From Zeus faber (taxonomy: Eukaryota; Chordata; Actinopteri; Zeiformes; Zeidae): DNA of 64,000 nt. The DNA is taken from contig OY482853.1 in assembly GCA_960531495.1 (NCBI GenBank), positions 5,611,022-5,675,021 of the forward strand, written 5' to 3'. Numbering within the stretch: the first letter of the stretch is position 1; each line of letters starts with the position of its first letter. A program made the position numbers and the translations under genes. Below the pieces are notes generated by a model. That model ran no database searches. It saw nothing but the letters and a program-made list of their open reading frames with translations, and was not told where the DNA came from. Below are positions 1,538 to 56,265 of the stretch, one piece after another.

Positions 1538-5299
<3,762 letters not shown>

Positions 5300-5409
5300 G
5301 GTGATTCTGCAACTATTTTGCGACACCGGCCGCTAAATGACGGCTAAGGTCTTTGTCGTAAAACACGAGCGGTTGCCATGGGTTTTCTCTTCGCGGGCGG
5401 CTGAACAAG
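5300..5409. promoter_or_regulatory. Divergent psmd8/nup88 promoter
   Basis: Only 110 bp separate the two start codons, so both 5'UTRs and the core promoter must lie here or overlap the first exons. The sequence is GC-rich with many CpGs and I see no TATA box. The nup88 ATG is embedded in AAGATGGCGGC (5407-5417), a good match to the YY1 element often found at the start of TATA-less housekeeping genes. Transcription start sites cannot be placed from sequence. Confidence 0.6.
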
Positions 5410-7542
5410 ATGGCGGCCTTCGGGGGAGAGCGCTGGCTGGACGAGTTGCCGAACCACCGCATGTTCGGTTTGTTACGGGAGGGCGTCGGTGCGGAGCCCA
5501 AGGCGAACGACCGGAGAACCGCAAAGAACCTCACGTTCTGCCTGAACGGGGACCTCTTCATCTGGGACGATGCGGAACGCGTGCTCTACACCACCAACCT
5601 GCGGCAGCTGAACCTCCAGACCCTGCTGTGCTCCAGCCCGCCCCGCTTCCCGGTGTCGCAGGTGCTGCTCGGCCCCACGCAGCGCCACGTCGCCCTGATC
5701 GGCCAGCGCGGCGCCTCGGTGCTGGAGCTACCTCAGCGCTGGGGCAAGAGGTCCGAGTTCGAGGGCGGACGGAGCGAGATCAGCTGCCGGACCGTCCCCG
5801 TGGCGGAGCGCTTCTTCACCAGCTCGGCCTCGGTGGGTCTGCGGCAGGCGGCCTGGTTCCCCGGCGAGGCGGAGGAGCCGCTCCTGGTGCTGCTCACCTC
5901 GGACAACACCATTCGCTTCTACGGGCTGAGGACGCCCCAGACCCCCGCCAAGGTGCTGCCCGTGTCCCAGTCTGAGGACGACAGTGTGCGGCCCCGTGTG
6001 CGCTCGTACGCGGCCTCGCTGGGCGAGACCGCGGTCGCGTTCGACTTTGGGCCGGTGTCTTGCACGACCCGGCAGCTGCCGGGCCAGGGGCCCAAGGAGC
6101 TGCTGGTTTACCCCTTATACATCCTCTATGAGAACGGGGAGACCTACCTGAGCCACGCCACCAGCCAGGTGGGAGGTCTGAGCCTCAGCAAGCCGGCAGG
6201 ACCCCTCCCCATGTACCCCGCGGCGGAAGACAACTACGGGTACGACGCCTGTGCCGTCCTGTGTCTGCCCTGCGTGCCCAATATACTGGTCATCGCCACG
6301 GAAACGGGGATGCTGTACCACTGTGTGGTGCTGGAGTCTGAGGAAGAGGAGGAACCCGGGGCCGTGGAGCGGTGGACGCGGGGCTCGGGACAGGTGCCAT
6401 CCCTCTACGTGTTTGAGTGTGTGGAGCTGGAGCTCACCCTGAAGCTGGCTACCGGAGAGGACGAGGAGCCCCAGGAGTCTGACTTCACCTGCCCGATCCG
6501 ACTCCACAGAGACCCGCTGTGCCAGCACCGCTACCATTGCACCCACGAGGCAGGGGTGCACAGTGTGGGGCTGACCTGGTTCAACAAGCTGCACGCCTTC
6601 CTCCAGTCTGATGAGGAGGAGAAGGACAGTCTTCAGGACCTGGCGGCGGAGAAGCGCTGCATCGTGGAGCACATCCTCTGCACGCGGCCGCTCTCCACCA
6701 GCCCCTCGGCCCCCGTGCGTGGCTTCCTAATCGTGTCTGACCTCTGCCTCGGCGCCACCATGGTCTGCGTCACCAGCACCTACGAGTGCATCCTGCTGCC
6801 CCTTCTGAGCTCCATCCGGCCCCCTTCTCCTCCCCTGCTGTGCACCGGACCAGGAGCCGGGTTGGCCAGCTCCCCTCTGCGAGGACTGGCCGACGACTCC
6901 TTCGAGCAGCACATACGCAACATCCTGGCCCGCGGCTCGGCCAATCCCTTGGTGCTGCGGGCGGGAGACAAGGACACACCCACCCCGCCTCCAGAGTGCC
7001 TGCAGCTCCTGAGCAGAGCCACGCAGGTGTTCAGGGAGGAGTACATCCTCAAGCAGGACATGGCCTGTGAGGAGATGCAGAGGAGGGTCAAACTCCTGCT
7101 GGGGCAGAAGAGCAAGCAGCTGGACGAGCTGGCGCTTTGCCGGGAGGAGAGGAAGAGCCTCAGGGAGGCTGCGGAGAGGCTGGCCGACAAGTACGAGGAC
7201 GCCAAGTACCACCAGGAAGCAATCATGAAGAGGGTGAAGTGGGTGCTGGGCAGCCAGCGCAGCCAACTGCCCGTGCTGTCTGACAGCGAGAAGGACATGA
7301 AGAAGGAGCTGCGGACCGTCAGCGACCAGCTGAAGCACCTTGACAACAGCATCAAACAGGTGAACATGAAGACGGAGTACCAGAGGAAGCAACTGGACAA
7401 GGGGGCGACGGCGGCCAGGGCCACAGTCTCCCTCAACGCCCAGCAGAAGAAGTGCGTGCAAGGTGTCCTCAAGGAGCAGGGCGCGCACATCGCCGACATG
7501 ATGAAGCAGATCAAGGACATCAGGAATCATTTCAATTTCTAA
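5410..7542 (+). CDS. nup88: Nucleoporin 88, single uninterrupted ORF
   Basis: Nup88 sits on the cytoplasmic face of the nuclear pore with Nup214 and Nup62 and takes part in CRM1-dependent export. The ORF encodes 710 aa (human about 741). Hallmarks in order: [13 protein letters not shown] near the N-terminus, [60 protein letters not shown], the acidic SEEEEEP loop, and [16 protein letters not shown]. These form the N-terminal beta-propeller (about residues 1-490). A charged coiled coil follows (about 540-710, [20 protein letters not shown]), ending in IRNHFNF. The gene is GC-rich. No stop, frameshift or intron is visible across 2.1 kb, whereas the mammalian gene has many exons; see findings. 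The reading frame looks intact and functional. A poly(A) signal follows at 7902. Confidence 0.96.
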
Positions 7543-7901
7543 TTTTTTTTGTTTTGGCAAAAACCAAACTGAGCAGCTCTTAAATAGAGTGAATGCATTG
7601 CTTCCTGAGCTAGAATCTGGGCTTTTAGCTGCAGGGAATGAATGTACATTGGGTTGAATGGGAAATGTTTTGTGTACATGAATATTAACAATGTTTCATA
7701 TGCTGTTTGACTCTTTGGATAATGAAATACTATCCTGGCATAAATTTAGTTTACTTATTTGTAAAATATTATTTGAATATTGCAAGCCAGAATGTAATGG
7801 AATGTCAAGTATTTGGTATTATTTTATAAAGTCACATGGCTCAAACTAAGCTTGTTATGCTTTTATACTCCATATAGGTTGATTTTTCTCTTTGGATACA
7901 A

Positions 7902-7907
7902 AATAAA
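7902..7907 (+). terminator. nup88: nup88 poly(A) signal
   Basis: AATAAA about 360 bp after the nup88 stop, in AT-rich DNA typical of a 3'UTR. Confidence 0.6.
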
Positions 7908-9508
7908 CTATAATTTGTTTATCTGAATGGCTTGGAATTTCACTGCATGGTTTTTGGAGTGTGTGTGTATGTATGTATTTATTCATTTATTTATTTATTT
8001 TTAAAACGTTTTTACAGAATTAAGTTCACAAAAAGGATTCTTACTAAATTATCTCCCAAATGCATGGATGCTGACAGAACTACATTTACAATTCTTAGGT
8101 CTGCCATCTACGGTGGAAATCTTGCCACTGCTTTGGAGTGAGTAGGACTCCTTCATCCACCAGGGGTCACCCCTTTACTTACGGGTTTTCATCCCAAGTT
8201 TTGTGCTCTTCACCCGGGGCCGCGGTGAGGAATACCCCCCCACACAGTAAAAACAGTGTGACGTATGAGGAGACCCCAGTTTAGTTGAGTAGGCTCAATT
8301 GTTGAGGGGATGTTGCATGCTGTTAAAGGCCTGCACCTTAAGTGGCGCAGCACTCCTTCAGCAGCGATGCCGTGCAGCTCTTTGTGACTGTGCTCGACAC
8401 AACAGCTGAATATGAAATTGGCATATGACTCAGGCCTAATTGTGTAATCAGAGAATTATTGAGAAACTACCGTCCGCATTCTTGGGATGTTTGGTGAACT
8501 CGACTGGTGGAACAGCTGAGGAAATATCTGCTCACAATGCCTTGGGACGTTCTTGGGGAAAATGTTGAGTTTTTGGTTTGTAAAGTAATAACCAAATTAC
8601 CCCAAGAGTAGGACATTGTCCAGTTCTTTGCAGATTTTGCAGCTTGTTCTCCCTCTGCTCTCCCTCTCCTTTGTTTTCATACACACAAACCTACGAGAGA
8701 GGGTGTGGTTCACCGAAGGTCTCGTTCAGTCAGGTCTCCAAATAGGGGATTGTTGTTTAAGTCTTTCATAAAGGTACAGTGTCTAGATCCCTCTGTATGA
8801 GCCCAAGGAAACTTAGCAGACCCTAGGAAAGGAGATATTAATAACTCTTGGGCCGGCCTACCACATTCTTCACATGTGAGTCACACTGTATACCAGAGAG
8901 CAGGAGGAGGAAAGGAGCGGATAGCCTGTTTCTCATTTGTGTTTCTTTCCATGGAGGAGTGGAATAGGGAAGGCGGGGAGACCACCCCTTGCCTCGCAAA
9001 TCACAGCCCTCCAGAGTCACATGCAAACTCACACATGAGCGAGGCGGGCACACAGTGGGGCTGTGTACGAGCTACAGACCGACTCCTATATACACAGGGT
9101 GGAAGTATGAAAACATAATAAAAAACACGGGGGAATGTGTACTTGGTAGTTTGTCCGTGAGAGGAAGAGAGAGAGCGAGTGGGCAAGGGAGGGAGGAAGG
9201 GGCTCCAGCTACGGAAAATGGTGGTGTAGGGATTTGGCAGCGGCATAGAGTGAGTCACTGTTTATCAGATCTGTCACTGAGAAATGAACTGAACGCTATA
9301 CAAAAGAAAACCATGTGTAGACGGAAAGCCAAATGAGGTGCATCCATCCAACTTTCCATACGGCGCTGGCATGCTTACTGCTTAAATTTAGACGCTTTCC
9401 CTGACCTACATAATACTTCAAGGCGATGTCTCGATATACATCTAAGCTGCGATTATTAGTCACTACCTAAATAAAGACCGTCAAACAGACTGCGCACAGT
9501 CAATAAAG
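7908..9508. other. Intergenic, nup88 to ehd2 (convergent)
   Basis: Apart from a short TTTA-rich stretch near 7978-8000 and a GA-rich patch near 9160-9200, I see no gene, no RNA gene and no recognisable transposon. The ORFs here are short and unlike known proteins. Confidence 0.5.
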
Positions 9509-10644: not shown

Positions 10645-13555
10645 CTACGCGTCAGATCCCTTCTGCCGGCGTTTGGAGGGCGGGATGAGGCGGTTGGGGA
10701 GCTCCGGGGGCAGACCGTGGCCATCCAGCTTCACCTCTATCAGGTGGCTTGCGAGGGCGAACTCCTCATCATCCAGCATGCCGTCGCGGTCGACGTCCGA
10801 CAGCTTCCAGATGCGACCCAGCACCGAGTTGGGCAGCCGGGTGCTCACCATCCAGTCCTTCGCCTTGGTGCCGCTCAGCTTCCCCTCGTTGGGCGCCAAG
10901 TTGTAGAAGATCTCGTCGTACTTGGGCTTGTCCTTGGTCACCACCCAGTCCTCTTCCTCCTCACACCCCTCTCCGTTCTCCTCGGCGAAGGGGTCCCCCT
11001 CCATGAAGGGGCCCGCCCGGGTCCCCAGGAAGGCGCCGCCCTGCACGCCGAGCTGCTCCCCGGCCTCCAGCTCCTCCTGCCTCAGGAGGGGCATCAGCTT
11101 GGCGATGTCGGACGACAGGAGCTCGTCCAGAGCCGCCATCAGGTTGGGCTTCATGGTCTTAAACTTGGTGAAGTCATGAACAAGGAGCTGCTCCTGAGGA
11201 TGGAAACAAAATGAGGCCGAAGACATTTACTCACCAGGAGGATATATGACTGAAAACATTTTTTGTCTTCATAGGCTTTTGATTTTGTTTTCCGTCGGAT
11301 TTAATTCTCCTTAGTTGTCCCCTTTATATAATAATATAATATAACAATATAAAAAAAGCCTGACTCAGAGATTCTACACCTGTGGTTTTCTGGCCAGATT
11401 ATGAGAATAAAACCCCCAGCTACAAATAATTGAAATAATTCACTGCTGGGAACATCTGGTTCACAGTAATATGGAGCAACAGTCGAAGGTACGTTCTCAA
11501 AACGTGCAGCAAGCTGCCTCAGCTACACACATTCCTATCATTTTCTATGTAGAGCAGGAGCTGCAGGCACCACTGCATGATGGACGCAGACCAGCCGGTA
11601 AAGACGAATCCAGGCAATACCCGGAAGCAGCCAAGCCGCCATTACTGCAGTGTGTGGTCACTATTAGACTCAGCTCTTATGTGATAATATTATATTGAAG
11701 CCTGCACGAGGAATTACCCAAACTCTCTGCATATGTTTCAGTTCAGGAGACCACATTCTGCAGCGGTGGATCAAAACAGAAAAGGACTTTGTTAAATAAT
11801 ATCAACACAGTCGTCCTTGATCTGTCTGTGGGGGCTGTTGCCTCATGTTGTCCATCCACATCTCCATTGAGTACAGGACCGTAAACAATTAAACAGCCAT
11901 CAGTTGGACATTTTGGGTGTCTGGCACGTCCCCATGCATCAGTCAGACTAACCTGCATTTTGGTACAATCTGGGAAGTCTCCGGGGGAGATGTGGTGCTG
12001 CAGCTGGATCTTGGAAAATATGACCGGGAGCTGGTAGATTAGATTCTTCTTCTTATTGTCCTTCCTGAACACAGAGGGCATCTCCTGCTTCAGATAGCTG
12101 ATGATGTGGGCATGGACCTAGGACGGAAAAGAGCATGGTAACTGCAGGCTGCCAAAACACCAACACCGGTACTGTAGTGTTGCCAGTTCAGTCAACCGAG
12201 TTTTGTTGCCCATATGGTTCTGGCGCGAGACATTGCAGTTCATACCTGGCAACCCCCAACTGCATTTAAAATCACTCAGATCTCGTTTCAAGGTTTTTAT
12301 TTTCACTTGTCATTAAGGATGCACTATGTATTTCTTGAGATGGAAGGTGTATTTCCCCAGTTTCACAGGAGCTGGGCTAGTTAATTCCCTCTGCAGCCTT
12401 GCATTGAGCCACCCCAGTCAGCATGCAGCCCGTCACTATCTCGTTACTGCACATACAGGGATGAAGTTGGTATGGACCACCTTGGTTGAATCTGGGTAGG
12501 ATAGACAGGACTGGGGTATCCCTCCGAAGTTTTGATTCTTATCGACCATGTAGAGCTTAGCACAAAGTTGTATCTATTCATCCCATTTAAGTATGGAGAG
12601 CAAAAACCACAAGTGACACGCTATAATCATAGAATCATACCGATTTGATTTGTGCAATACCTGACCCGCTGGCAGAGTACTGTACATCAAGACCTACTTA
12701 GGTAGAGTAGTATGTGAGGTGCACGTGGAGTCACGCACCCTGACCAGGCGCGCCCTCTTGACCAGGTCGTTCAGCTTGCGCAGGGCCGCGTTGCGGGGAA
12801 GGTTCTGGATGTCGGTGAACAGATCCTCCTCCTCCAGCTCAAACAGCCTGCGGTTGTCGGGCACCAGCAGCGGCTCGGACCAGAAGGAGCCGATGTAGAC
12901 GCGCAGCACCTCGGGAGTGCCGAACACCTTCCCCAGAGACCACATGAGGGCTCCGTACACCCGCATCAGCTGCTGCGTGTCCACCATGTCGGCCTTGTTG
13001 AGGACCACGCGCAGCTTGTCCTCGTTCCCTTTGAGCGCACCGATGGCCTCGGAGAACTCGTCTGAGATCTCCAGCTTGTGGGCGTCAAACAGCAGGATGA
13101 TCCGGTCCACACGCTCCGCGAACCAGCGCAGCACGGCCGGGAAGTCGTAGCCTGTTCGGAGGGGAGGGGGGGAGACGCGCCGCCGCGGGGTCACTCGGGT
13201 TGACCTAAGTCTCGACGCGCGGCGATGTAGACCAAAAGACGGACGGACAGACGTGAACGCGGGTATGGGACCGCACCCGCGCGGCAGGAGAGTGGAGGAC
13301 ACAGACACAAACCTCCACATCTCTCATCTAGTTACGCCTTCGCATTGCTGTCCTGACGTCATGGAGACCTTTGCAGCATCATCAACTCGAGGCCCAATTG
13401 GAGATAAATATGGAATGTTCTCAAAATGTCGGGAAGTAATTTAACTACATTATAATTTAGCTAGCGTCATATTTCCATGCTTCTGACATGTGTATGTCTT
13501 AAACAATATGATCAATTCGTCATCTCATTAGTTTCTCATGCAACTTTGGAAAAGG

Positions 13556-22134: not shown

Positions 22135-33235
<11,101 letters not shown>

Positions 33236-36880: not shown

Positions 36881-43495
<6,615 letters not shown>

Positions 43496-44327: not shown

Positions 44328-47300
44328 TCAGAGCGGCTGGAGCTCGGTTTCACCATTTTCTGCCGAAAGAGGATTTACATTTAGTCAGGACACGGACACT
44401 GGTGTCGCATCGCCAAAACAAGGTTGAGTTGATGTTAATTTTTAATTGCAGACCTTTGTACCAAAACATTCCTCCATGTACATTTCAAACATTTATTCAG
44501 GAAGTGTTGACAAAACCAAATGTAAAATTGAGGGGTTCTTTTCTTCAACCGATTCGTTCATCCTGGTTTTGGGTTTTACAATATCCTTGCCAGAAGTTTA
44601 GTTCAGTTTTCCTGACTTTGGTAAAACAACACAGGACTCGATTAACACGGATCCATTATCTATTTAGAAAACCTAACCGTTGAAAAAAATGAAAGAACAT
44701 CCCCTACAGTCAGATCTGTGGAACAGAGCAGCTTTGTTAAGAGCAGGAAGAAAGAACATGGAGATTATAAAACAGAACCACGCAAATACTGATGAGAATA
44801 ATTCTGGAGGCGGCGGCGGACAGAAGGAAACCTCATTGTTGACAAAAATAATTATCCTATAAATTCTGAACACATCGTGTTAGTATTGAGGGTCCGGGTG
44901 TGGAACCAGAGGACAGTGGTTTCCATACTCCACCCGAATTAAAAAAGGTTTTCTGCAGGACTTTATTCTTTTTCTATATTAAGTTCATATCGTTCATCAC
45001 ATTTAATCCTCTTTTCAAACATCATTTCCCATCCTTCTCTGCGGCACTGATCCTGAAGTCTTCCCATCCGTTTTTCTTTCACAAAAACTCCTGTAGACGT
45101 TATAGACACCTTCATAAAAGCTGAGTTCAGACTTAATAAATATAATATAATGATAATAAATGATCATACAGGACAGATCGATCGTCTTTCTCTGTTCCAT
45201 GTAGTGAACACATGCTCCCTGATCAAATGAGTATCTGCATGTGGTTTACTGATTTTAAGCTTTTTACAACAATCTGTTTGGCAAAATGTGCATTTTATTT
45301 CAGTAATTCACGGGTTCAAGGGTTTGAAGGCTATATTCAGTCGGAAAAACGTAATGATTCGCAAACGTCCTCTAAGTGGAGTAAAAAAAAGAAAAATAGA
45401 AATGTATTTCTTTTCAGGCTATAATATGCATGTCATTTGAATGTGCAGTTTTATCTATATGAATAGTGTAATTATCATATTGTGCTAGTTTTTCTGTTCC
45501 TTTTATCAGATGTTGTACCCTTTGTACCAATAAGGAGCCTCTGTTTATATCTTGTATTTTATATGTTTCTATATGGGCCGCTATCAAATAATATCCCTAC
45601 AACGTGCCAGTCGATCAATCTAATATGAATCCAATATAAACGGTCAGACGGCAAGCGGCTGTCTGCTGACAGTCATCTGAACCACACCCTCCGAAACACA
45701 TCATCCCGGGTGTTTCAACACTTCACCGCCGCCATAAAAAGGCGGGCGGCTCCCGGGCCGGAGCGCGTCAAACGCAGACGGGCGCCGCGGTTTGCGGAGC
45801 GCGGGGGGAGGGATGCTCACCTGGCGCCGGCCGCCTGCGCCTGCACGCGAGGATCCTCCTGTAGGCTCGGTCCAGCAGCCACATGGAGAGCATGAGGAGC
45901 CCGGCCAGGCAGGCCAGGACCGCGCCCGACACACTGAGGTACTGGAGGTCCTCGTAGATCACCTCTGGACGGGAGAGGGGAAGGTGCGTTCAAGGCGATG
46001 AAATGATGCGGAGCGGGGATGCAGACGTTCAGGCGTTACAAACAAAATGAATCTCGAATATGAGAAGCTCACCATATGACCGGGCGTTCCTCGTTATGTC
46101 GTACCGGAAAGAAATGGCCAAAAGACGCCGCATTTTTTCGGTGTTTTTCAGGGTTTCAGCGACCGTTTGGCCCTTCCGCAAATAAGCCGACCGACAAAGA
46201 ACCTGCCCCTTAACATTACATTACATTACATTGCATTTAGCAGACGCTTTTATCCAAGGCGACTTACAATTGTTCAAACACCGACGGATGCAGCCATCAG
46301 GAGCAATTAGGGGTTAAGTGTCTTGCTCAAGGACACTACAGCATGCTAGCAGGAGGAGCCTGGGATCCAACCAGCAACCTTTAGATCACTAGACCACCAG
46401 CTCTACCTCCTGAGCTACCATCCCTTAAAAGGTGCAGCGGGTACATGACCGCAAACGAAGCGCGGCGAGTGAAGCGCGGCGAGTGAAGCTCTTCCCGCGG
46501 CTACGGGGTTGACTCCAGACGAAAGTCGTACGCCAGCCCAGGAGAACAACGGCATGACGGGAGGTTTGGGCGGGGGCGCGTGTTTGGGCGGGGGCTCAAG
46601 GTCACAGCCGATCAGGGTAACGTTAAAGTTTAAGGGACAAGAGGAGTCACGACGCCGCCGGAGGCGCCCACCAAGTCTGTGTTTTACGTTGAGAATTTAT
46701 AGGACGAACTCAGAGCTTGAACTTGCCGTCGGCTGCGGGCGCCGGCGGATACAAACTTAAAGGTCAAGGACAAGTCAAGCCACCAATGTAAGCGGAAAAT
46801 TTTAAAAGAGGAACTATTTGATCTATAGACTGTGGGAGGTGGGAGTCAATAAGTTGATCTCCACACACTCTCACCAAAGGGCCCTTGGGCACAGCACCTC
46901 CAAGACCCTGGGATGTTTTGGGGAGACAGTAGGATATCCTGCAGCGTGCGTGGACTCAGCTAACCCTTCCTGGGCTAATAAGGGGGTTTGACCTCCACAC
47001 AAGACCTCTGAGACACTTCCATCTGCGGGGCAACGCATTTTAATTCCGGGTGGAGTCCACCACGAAGCCCACTCCCCCCCGAGCGTCCGCTCCACGGACA
47101 GAGGCGCCGAAAGGGGGAACTCACCGTTGACCTTCAGGACAAAGCCGCTGTCCCTGCTGTTGCCCGTGGCCTCTGTGATGGACACCACGTAGAAGCCGGC
47201 GTCCTGCAGCCGCAGGTCCGACAGGCCCATGGAGCCGTTGGCGTAGGGCCGCACCCGCTCCCTGTAGTCCAGCGTGATGTTGGCGGCGGCCCCCGGCCGC

Positions 47301-48345
47301 CACGCCCCGATGCTGCGGCTCACCGCTCCGGACATGAAGGTCCACTGGACGGTGGGGGCCCCGCGGCAGGTGAAGTGCACAGAGAAGAGCACGTCCTCTT
47401 GCACGGAGCGCGTCAGGCTCCTCTGGGGCGAGTGGATGGAGATGGCCCCTGCTGCCGGGACACGGGGAGGTCAAATCGAGGGGGTCAGAATCGTGTACCG
47501 ACGGCCCCGTAAAACAGACCTCGGAAGCGTACGGAGGAGACAGTAAATCCCGTACTTCTACAGCTAACGTTTAACCTCAGATATAAAGCAATAAAGCCTT
47601 TCAGAGTCTGCGAGGGGCCGTAAAACGTCCGGCACAGAGAGTCCCTCTGCCCTCTGCCCTCTGCCCTCTGCGAAAAGAAGCAAAGCGCCAAACGCCGAGC
47701 TGCTCCGCCGCCGCCGTCGGGCCCGCTGTGTCGAGTGACCTTGCGTTGCTTTTCGGGTCCCGGCCGGGAGGGAGCCGACGGGGATTCCGGAGAGCAGGTT
47801 CATCCACAAAGCTCCGGGACACTGAGTTACAGGTTGTTGAGTTGCGAAACGGTGACGACTGGTTTTGATCGGAGCGTCACGCTCCCCTCCTGCCCCCGGG
47901 CACTTACACCACAGGTGTGGCAATGAAGGACCGGGTCGAGACGGAGGTGTGTGTGTGTGTGTGTGTGCGTGTGTGCGTGTGTGTGTTGTGTCCCGATGAA
48001 GCATGGGAAGACAATCCCGTCAAGGAATTCAACCAACCAACCCTGACTTAAGGTACAAAATGGCCGACACCATAACATCATTTCCTGAGTTGTGTCATGG
48101 GTCCCTGCCATGATAGTGGAATTCCGTCACATTCCGTTGGCGGGTTTGTCTGTCTTCTACGTTTGAGTTTCTATCGGGAGGGTTTGCCCCCACAATCTGC
48201 ACCTTAACAGGAGAGTAAACACTGGCGGGCCCTTTAGTTTCTCAACACACAGACACACATAGATATACAGTACTCTCTGGTTGAATAATAATTATAATAG
48301 AAATAATAATAAAAATAACAATAAAAAATAAAATGTATTATTATT

Positions 48346-49146: not shown

Positions 49147-49462
49147 ACATACATATACATACTTTCATACATAAACATACTTTCATACATAAACATACTT
49201 TCATACATAAACATACTTTCATACATATACATACTTTCATACATATACATACTTTCATACATAAACATACTTTCATACATAAACATACTTTCATACATAT
49301 ACATACTTTCATACATATACATACTTTCATACATATACATACTTTCATACATATACATCCTTTCATACATATACATACTTTCATACATAAACATACTTTC
49401 ATACATATACATACTTTCATACATATACATACTTTCATACATATACATACTTTCATACATAT
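49147..49462. repeat. 18-bp minisatellite
   Basis: About 17 tandem copies of an 18-bp unit (ATACATAAACATACTTTC and the variant ATACATATACATACTTTC). The 18-bp period keeps a false ORF open on minus (repeated MYMYES). It starts right after a TTCAAGATTCAAGA segment (49120-49133) that resembles the end of a known teleost repeat. Confidence 0.9.
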
Positions 49463-49499
49463 ATGCAGTGAAATGTAATGCAACGCATCCGGTGATAGG

Positions 49500-55466: not shown

Positions 55467-55744
55467 TGAGATAAGATAAGATAAACCTTTATTAGTCCCA
55501 CAACGGGGAAATTTACTTCGTTCCAGTAGCAAATTGGAGACAGCAGAAAATAAAGAGCATATCAAGTACACACTATAAACAATATAAAATATATAGAAAC
55601 ATACAAATAAAAAAAAATCACCATAAATAGGAACCAGATAGTATTAAGTGTATTGGACATATCTTGACACATTGCACATCAGGGATTGCACTTTATTTAT
55701 TTATTTATTTTTTATATAAAAAAATTGCACTTGGATTATTTCAC

Positions 55745-55780
<36 letters not shown>

Positions 55781-56265
55781 TCTGTCTACTGGCTGCACTG
55801 TTGGTCATACAGTCTGACAGCCGCAGGAAGAAGGACCTGCAATAGCGCTCCTTCCCACACTTTGGGTGAAGCAGCCTATCGCTGAAGGAGCTCCCCAGTG
55901 CCATCTGAGTCTCATGCATGGGGTGGGACTCGTTCTCCGTCGTGGATGACAGCTTAACCGTCATCCTCCTTTCTCCCACCACCTGCACTGGGCCCAGAGG
56001 GCCCCCCAGGACAGAGCTGGCCTTCTTGATCAGTTTGTCAAGCCTCTTCCTGTCAGCTGTGGTGAGGCTGTTGCCCCAGCAGACCACTCCATAAAAGATG
56101 GCTGATGCCACCACGGTGTCGAAGAAGATCCTCAGGAGAGCCCCCAGCGTCCAAAGGACCTAAGCCCTCTGAGCAGATAGAGTCTGCGCTGACCCTTCTT
56201 ATAAAGTGCACGTTAGTCCAGTTTATTGTTCAGGTGAACACCCAGGTACTTGTAAGATGGGGGGG
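55467..56265 (-). mobile_element. 5'-truncated LINE, C-terminal part of reverse transcriptase
   Basis: On minus, the segment 56260-55800 encodes a LINE polyprotein C-terminus: NLGVHLNNKLDW, RRVSAQTL, then FDTVVASAIFYGVVCWGNS, DRKRLDKLIKKASSVLG and FSDRLLHPKC, with frameshifts. The 3' end holds a (GT)n (55747-55779) and a terminal stretch whose plus-strand form AACCTTTATTAGTCCCACAA (55484-55503) is a familiar teleost LINE terminus. It is distinct from the LINE at 52.6-53.7 kb. Confidence 0.75.

Follow-up and report, generated by a model that had tools for sequence, protein, structure and literature searches.

The nup88 gene of Zeus faber is a single uninterrupted exon, and it is the sole detectable nup88 of the genome assembly. 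It lies in a 64,000-nucleotide stretch of DNA (here called the window; C9:5611022-5675021) on a 34.7-Mb contig, and all positions without a contig name refer to this window. The frame is intact, homology extends over the full length of the protein, the split gene psmd8 adjoins it, and the families of the genes that we take to flank human NUP88 are found elsewhere in the assembly. We consider it likely that nup88 at 5410-7542 is functional, the only nup88 of Zeus faber and an orphan retrogene; the best reading of the data is of an old, functional retrogene that has replaced its parent. The features on which the analysis draws are as follows.

1538..5299, minus strand: psmd8, seven exons, 265 amino acids (gene model and match to proteasome subunit 8)
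5299-5195, 4613-4541, 4455-4353, 4261-4096, 3639-3539, 3126-3015 and 1675-1538, minus strand: the psmd8 exons (gene model)
5300..5409, no strand: 110 bp separating the start codons of psmd8 and nup88, presumed to serve both genes as a two-way promoter (CpG content and motif strings)
5406..5417, plus strand: TISU/YY1-like element CAAGATGGCGGC, spanning the start codon of nup88 (exact match to the consensus)
5410..7542, plus strand: nup88 coding sequence, single exon, 710 codons and stop (ORF list, translation, Pfam, PDB and alignment)
7902..7907, plus strand: AATAAA, presumed nup88 polyadenylation signal (the only AATAAA or ATTAAA in 7543-8400)
10645..11226, minus strand: ORF holding a C-terminal coding exon of EHD2 (homology)
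38210..38500, plus strand: ORF holding an exon of MED17 (homology)

The initial annotation had described nup88 as one exon, free of stops and frameshifts, that spans the whole Nup88 protein, and both statements were borne out. According to the ORF list and its translation, the 710 codons on the plus strand run from an ATG to a TAA that is the only stop in the frame. Residues 9-709 of the product aligned with positions 2-702 of the 702-position Pfam Nup88 profile (PF10168; E 2.1e-281), and the score of 935.3 bits, against a cut-off of 24.4, assigns the protein to this family. When the protein was searched against the PDB, six sequences were matched. The best was the Nup88 chain of 7r5j, which we take to be human, with query residues 5-710 on chain residues 10-741; next came two 728-residue chains named Nup88A, presumably from Xenopus, and the other three matches were two partial chains and a weak one. 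The four-residue overhang relative to the human stretch arises because the latter begins at residue 10. Identity to human NUP88 was 61.8% (435/704 aligned residues) and to the frog protein 58.4% (411/704), while human and frog were 65.7% identical (475/723). As in other vertebrates, the protein is full-length and can be aligned almost from its N-terminus through to the C-terminal end; the alignment to the human stretch required seven internal indels, each 1 to 14 residues long, and the DNA frame was open throughout. Homology aside, the chance of 710 open codons in a row at the ORF's own base composition is approximately 7e-9. A single nup88 orthologue, 63% identical to human, is reported for zebrafish (PMC6307818), so the Zeus faber protein has diverged to roughly the same extent as the Nup88 of another fish. 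Two long ORFs overlap nup88 in other frames, at 6727-7695 on the minus strand (322 codons) and 5337-5975 on the plus strand (212 codons), and probably result from the GC richness of the nup88 codons.

Human NUP88 is a split gene, with exons 11 and 14 mentioned in PMC6307818, whereas the Zeus faber gene has a single exon; an intronless coding sequence with a split orthologue is one mark of an orphan retrogene. The exon number of zebrafish nup88 was not found in the available text of PMC6307818 and PMC3770900. The 90% fall in mRNA described for zebrafish mutants, read as nonsense-mediated decay, would suit a split zebrafish gene but does not prove one. Loss of the gene is lethal in zebrafish, with mutants dying at or after 9 days (PMC6307818). 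The main text of PMC3136929, PMC8207432 and PMC4641402, as far as available, held no word starting with 'nup'.

The statement that every neighbouring gene keeps its introns was confirmed for psmd8, for which there is a full gene model, and is plausible for EHD2 and MED17, which appear to the right of nup88 as exon-sized pieces compatible with split genes. Psmd8 lies 110 bp from nup88 in divergent orientation and retains six GT-AG introns, and its product matches solved proteasome subunit 8 chains across residues 3-265. The psmd8 model comprises 265 residues, while most full-length solved chains of subunit 8 have approximately 350, with about 85 extra residues in front; a longer N-terminus, if the fish gene has one, would extend into the presumed shared promoter.

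A second nup88 was sought in the whole assembly (803,497,848 bases in 153 contigs) by searching six frames exon by exon and scoring the best candidates, three by profile and five by protein. The Nup88 profile gave one match at E <= 0.001, nup88 on C9 itself. The nup88 protein, searched up to E 10, returned its own gene and one match on C2, which was rejected as chance (E 0.74, 30% identity, two stops and a translation unlike Nup88 by eye). Thus no other credible nup88, split or unsplit, was found in the 803-Mb assembly by profile or protein search. Psmd8 served as an easy control, since its own protein was the query, and seven of its seven exons were recovered in matches of 28 to 93 residues. 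Family profiles, a fairer control, performed less completely. The Nic96 profile (the family of nucleoporin Nup93) yielded five pieces on C6 and left profile positions 349-574 unseen; the rabaptin profile (Rab5-bind) yielded seven pieces, all but one of them on C14 and the remaining one on C11; and the C1QBP and RPAIN profiles yielded one piece each, covering 46 of 212 and 55 of 80 positions, respectively. This partial coverage implies that single exons are often missed. Every control gene was nevertheless found, and a split nup88 of many exons should yield at least one match.

These searches bear on the possibility that a split parental nup88 exists but is absent from the assembly or was missed, the copy at 5410-7542 being an extra retrogene. 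Gaps are possible among 153 contigs, only the best candidates were scored and the family-profile controls were partial. Against this, every split control produced at least one match although a split nup88 would offer many exons, and zebrafish is reported to carry a single nup88 (PMC6307818); we regard a hidden parent as very improbable. The alternative offered in the initial annotation, that the retrocopy joins a multi-exon parent, is accordingly not upheld by this assembly, as the split controls were found wholly or in part and a second nup88 was not. Within the assembly, and given the partial view that such a search has of split genes, no parental copy is detectable, and lack of a parent is another mark of an orphan retrogene. 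Beyond this genome, pattern searches for relatives gave one match in viral contigs and 16 in bacterial and archaeal genomes, none of which was confirmed, and no match in plasmids, as expected because nup88 is an animal gene.

The gene order around human NUP88, which we take to be RABEP1, NUP88, RPAIN, C1QBP, DHX33, was used as the reference for the location of the neighbouring families. The RPAIN family match lies on C11 at 5.725 Mb (C11:5725330), whereas nup88 is on C9. The C1QBP match lies on C14 at 23.853 Mb beside a DEAH-box helicase gene that we took for dhx33, although no DHX33 chain was among the matches listed. Of the seven rabaptin matches, six lie at 12.2 Mb of C14, and the seventh, at 20.2 Mb of C11, scored below the family cut-off. 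No credible trace of nup88 was seen in the 60 kb around rpain (best tblastn E 0.24), and no tblastn match reached E 1 in the 60 kb around c1qbp; the rabaptin region was covered by the genome-wide search. With the human order as reference, the position of these families on C11 and C14, and not on C9, fits, but does not prove, a move of nup88 alone to a site beside psmd8 and erasure of the parent. Chromosome reshuffling may instead have separated the genes. The rabaptin, RPAIN and C1QBP families are spread over C11 and C14, which may be the pair of copies that remains from the teleost genome doubling. Among the frames listed for C11:5695001-5725000, to the left of rpain, much resembles retroelement remnants by eye.

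The same locations weigh on a second explanation, namely that nup88 already lay by psmd8 in the ancestor and lost its introns in place, its own cDNA having recombined with the gene and erased all of them in one step, with neither a move nor a second copy. Such an event would agree with the lack of a detected insertion scar, with the fact that zero introns remain and with the single copy of nup88 in the assembly. It agrees poorly with the placement of the families flanking the human gene (in the order given above) on C11 and C14 while nup88 is on C9, and, as we understand it, the cDNA route less commonly removes all introns of a gene, those close to the 5′ end included. We consider intron loss in place unlikely.

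Scars of retroposition, i.e., an A-tail and a target-site duplication, fade in old copies and are not strictly required. No poly(A) tract was found beside nup88. The longest shared string, 9 bp, was rejected as a target-site duplication since this length was reached by chance in 16% of 500 shuffles. The lack of an A-tail and of a convincing duplication indicates that the event was old or was not a simple insertion. The initial annotation's idea of a retrocopy was sustained in part: the gene is intron-free, full-length and the sole detectable copy, which favors parental replacement, but no retroposition scar was found.

When neutral substitution of the nup88 frame was simulated, the frame stayed open in 3% of 200 runs at 5% divergence and in 0 of 200 at 10%. 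The intact frame and the 61.8% identity to human suggest, indirectly, that nup88 is under purifying selection. Over 703 alignment columns, private differences numbered 106 in the fish, 69 in the frog and 46 in the human protein, which is the pattern of an outgroup and not a positive test of constraint. The GC content of third codon positions (GC3) was 0.875 in nup88, 0.714 in psmd8, 0.892 in the EHD2 exon and 0.576 in a large open frame at 29226-31370. Functional mammalian retrogenes are described as tending to exceed their parents in GC (PMC7181179). As proof of an intronless life, the high GC3 of nup88 was dropped, since the EHD2 exon is equally high and the value is thus not diagnostic. It does bear on the idea that the locus is a recent processed pseudogene or an assembly artefact that is open by luck, for which the intronless frame is the only argument. 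Across ten blocks of the frame, GC3 remains high (0.80-0.96), as opposed to 41% GC in the 3′ flank (7543-9000), no parent was detected as a source for copying, no A-tail was found and the gene sits in a 34.7-Mb contig. A lucky pseudogene or artefact is, in our judgment, scarcely credible.

For the favored reading, an old retrogene that replaced its parent, the region in front of the start codon offers a possible route to expression. The CpG observed/expected ratio of 5301-5409 was 1.35, and it follows from the shortness (110 bp) and CpG richness of the gap that both genes probably start inside it. SP1-like, CRE-like and RFX-half-site strings occur there. Upstream ATGs are present at 5337, opening the 212-codon frame that overlaps nup88, and at 5378; as part of the mRNA, these would impede translation, and they thus point to a short leader that starts below both. 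The sequence over the start codon, CAAGATGGCGGC, matches exactly what we take to be the TISU consensus, SAASATGGCGGC. This was the one match in the window, where 0.04 were expected, and at least one match arose in 4 of 100 shuffles. The string SAASATGGCGGC occurs in at least four published papers, and TISU is described as acting both on transcription and on translation, the latter for mRNAs whose leaders are very short (median 12 nt; PMC2518114). A TISU-like element is part of the mRNA and would thus be taken along by a processed copy. At the other end of the gene, the AATAAA at 7902 would place the end of the nup88 mRNA near 7920.

We infer from these features a possible course of events. A spliced nup88 mRNA would have been reverse-transcribed, and the cDNA inserted directly upstream of psmd8 in divergent orientation. 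The new copy might have been expressed at once from the CpG-rich, two-way start region of psmd8, aided by the TISU/YY1-like element that had traveled inside the mRNA. The split parent would have been lost afterwards, the intronless copy assuming the nuclear-pore role. In its full form, i.e., that in one fish lineage a retrocopy wholly replaced nup88 and seized the psmd8 promoter, the carried start-codon element having made it active on arrival, this proposal is tentative, and we think it somewhat doubtful. Were the promoter seizure correct, a pore protein and a proteasome lid subunit would be tied to one two-way promoter.

Retrogenes are usually extra copies. Here, the retrogene seems to be the sole gene for a vital pore protein, and replacement of a parent by its retrocopy is a known but uncommon route by which a vital gene is rebuilt. 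Twenty-five human orphan retrogenes were identified by Ciomborowska et al. (2013), as recounted in a review that names CHMP1B as an example (PMC5408686); in those cases, as proposed here, an intronless functional gene remains and the split parent is gone. Our case differs in that it concerns a fish and a nuclear-pore gene lying head to head with a proteasome gene, and parent loss is deduced from one genome. The intronless rhodopsin of teleosts (PMC6650399) is likewise a fish retrogene with an old, conserved function, but there intron-containing and intronless genes are both described, whereas no split copy of nup88 was detectable. Neither an intronless nup88 nor a psmd8-nup88 pair was found by title and start of abstract among the matches listed from open-licence PMC literature. 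How interesting the gene is depends on whether its intronless state is private to a lineage or common among fishes; if it were fish-wide and annotated, this would simply be the ordinary nup88 of those fishes. If the event were dated, it would offer a clean natural experiment on how a copy that lacks introns gains a promoter, survives and releases its parent.

Elsewhere in the window, two matches to the UnaL2 LINE 3′ element (Rfam RF00436) were observed, at 2458-2511 on the plus strand and 46227-46280 on the minus strand; the former lies within the last psmd8 intron and adjoins what appears by eye to be a tRNA-derived SINE. An ORF at 55704-56159 (minus strand) resembles by eye the C-terminal end of a LINE reverse transcriptase, with no Pfam match at E 0.001. 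Another, at 46874-47470 (minus strand), weakly matches the immunoglobulin V-set, scoring 23.7 bits where the cut-off is 26. In addition, positions 49148-49463 are occupied by a tandem array of an 18-bp unit in 17.6 copies with 97% matches.
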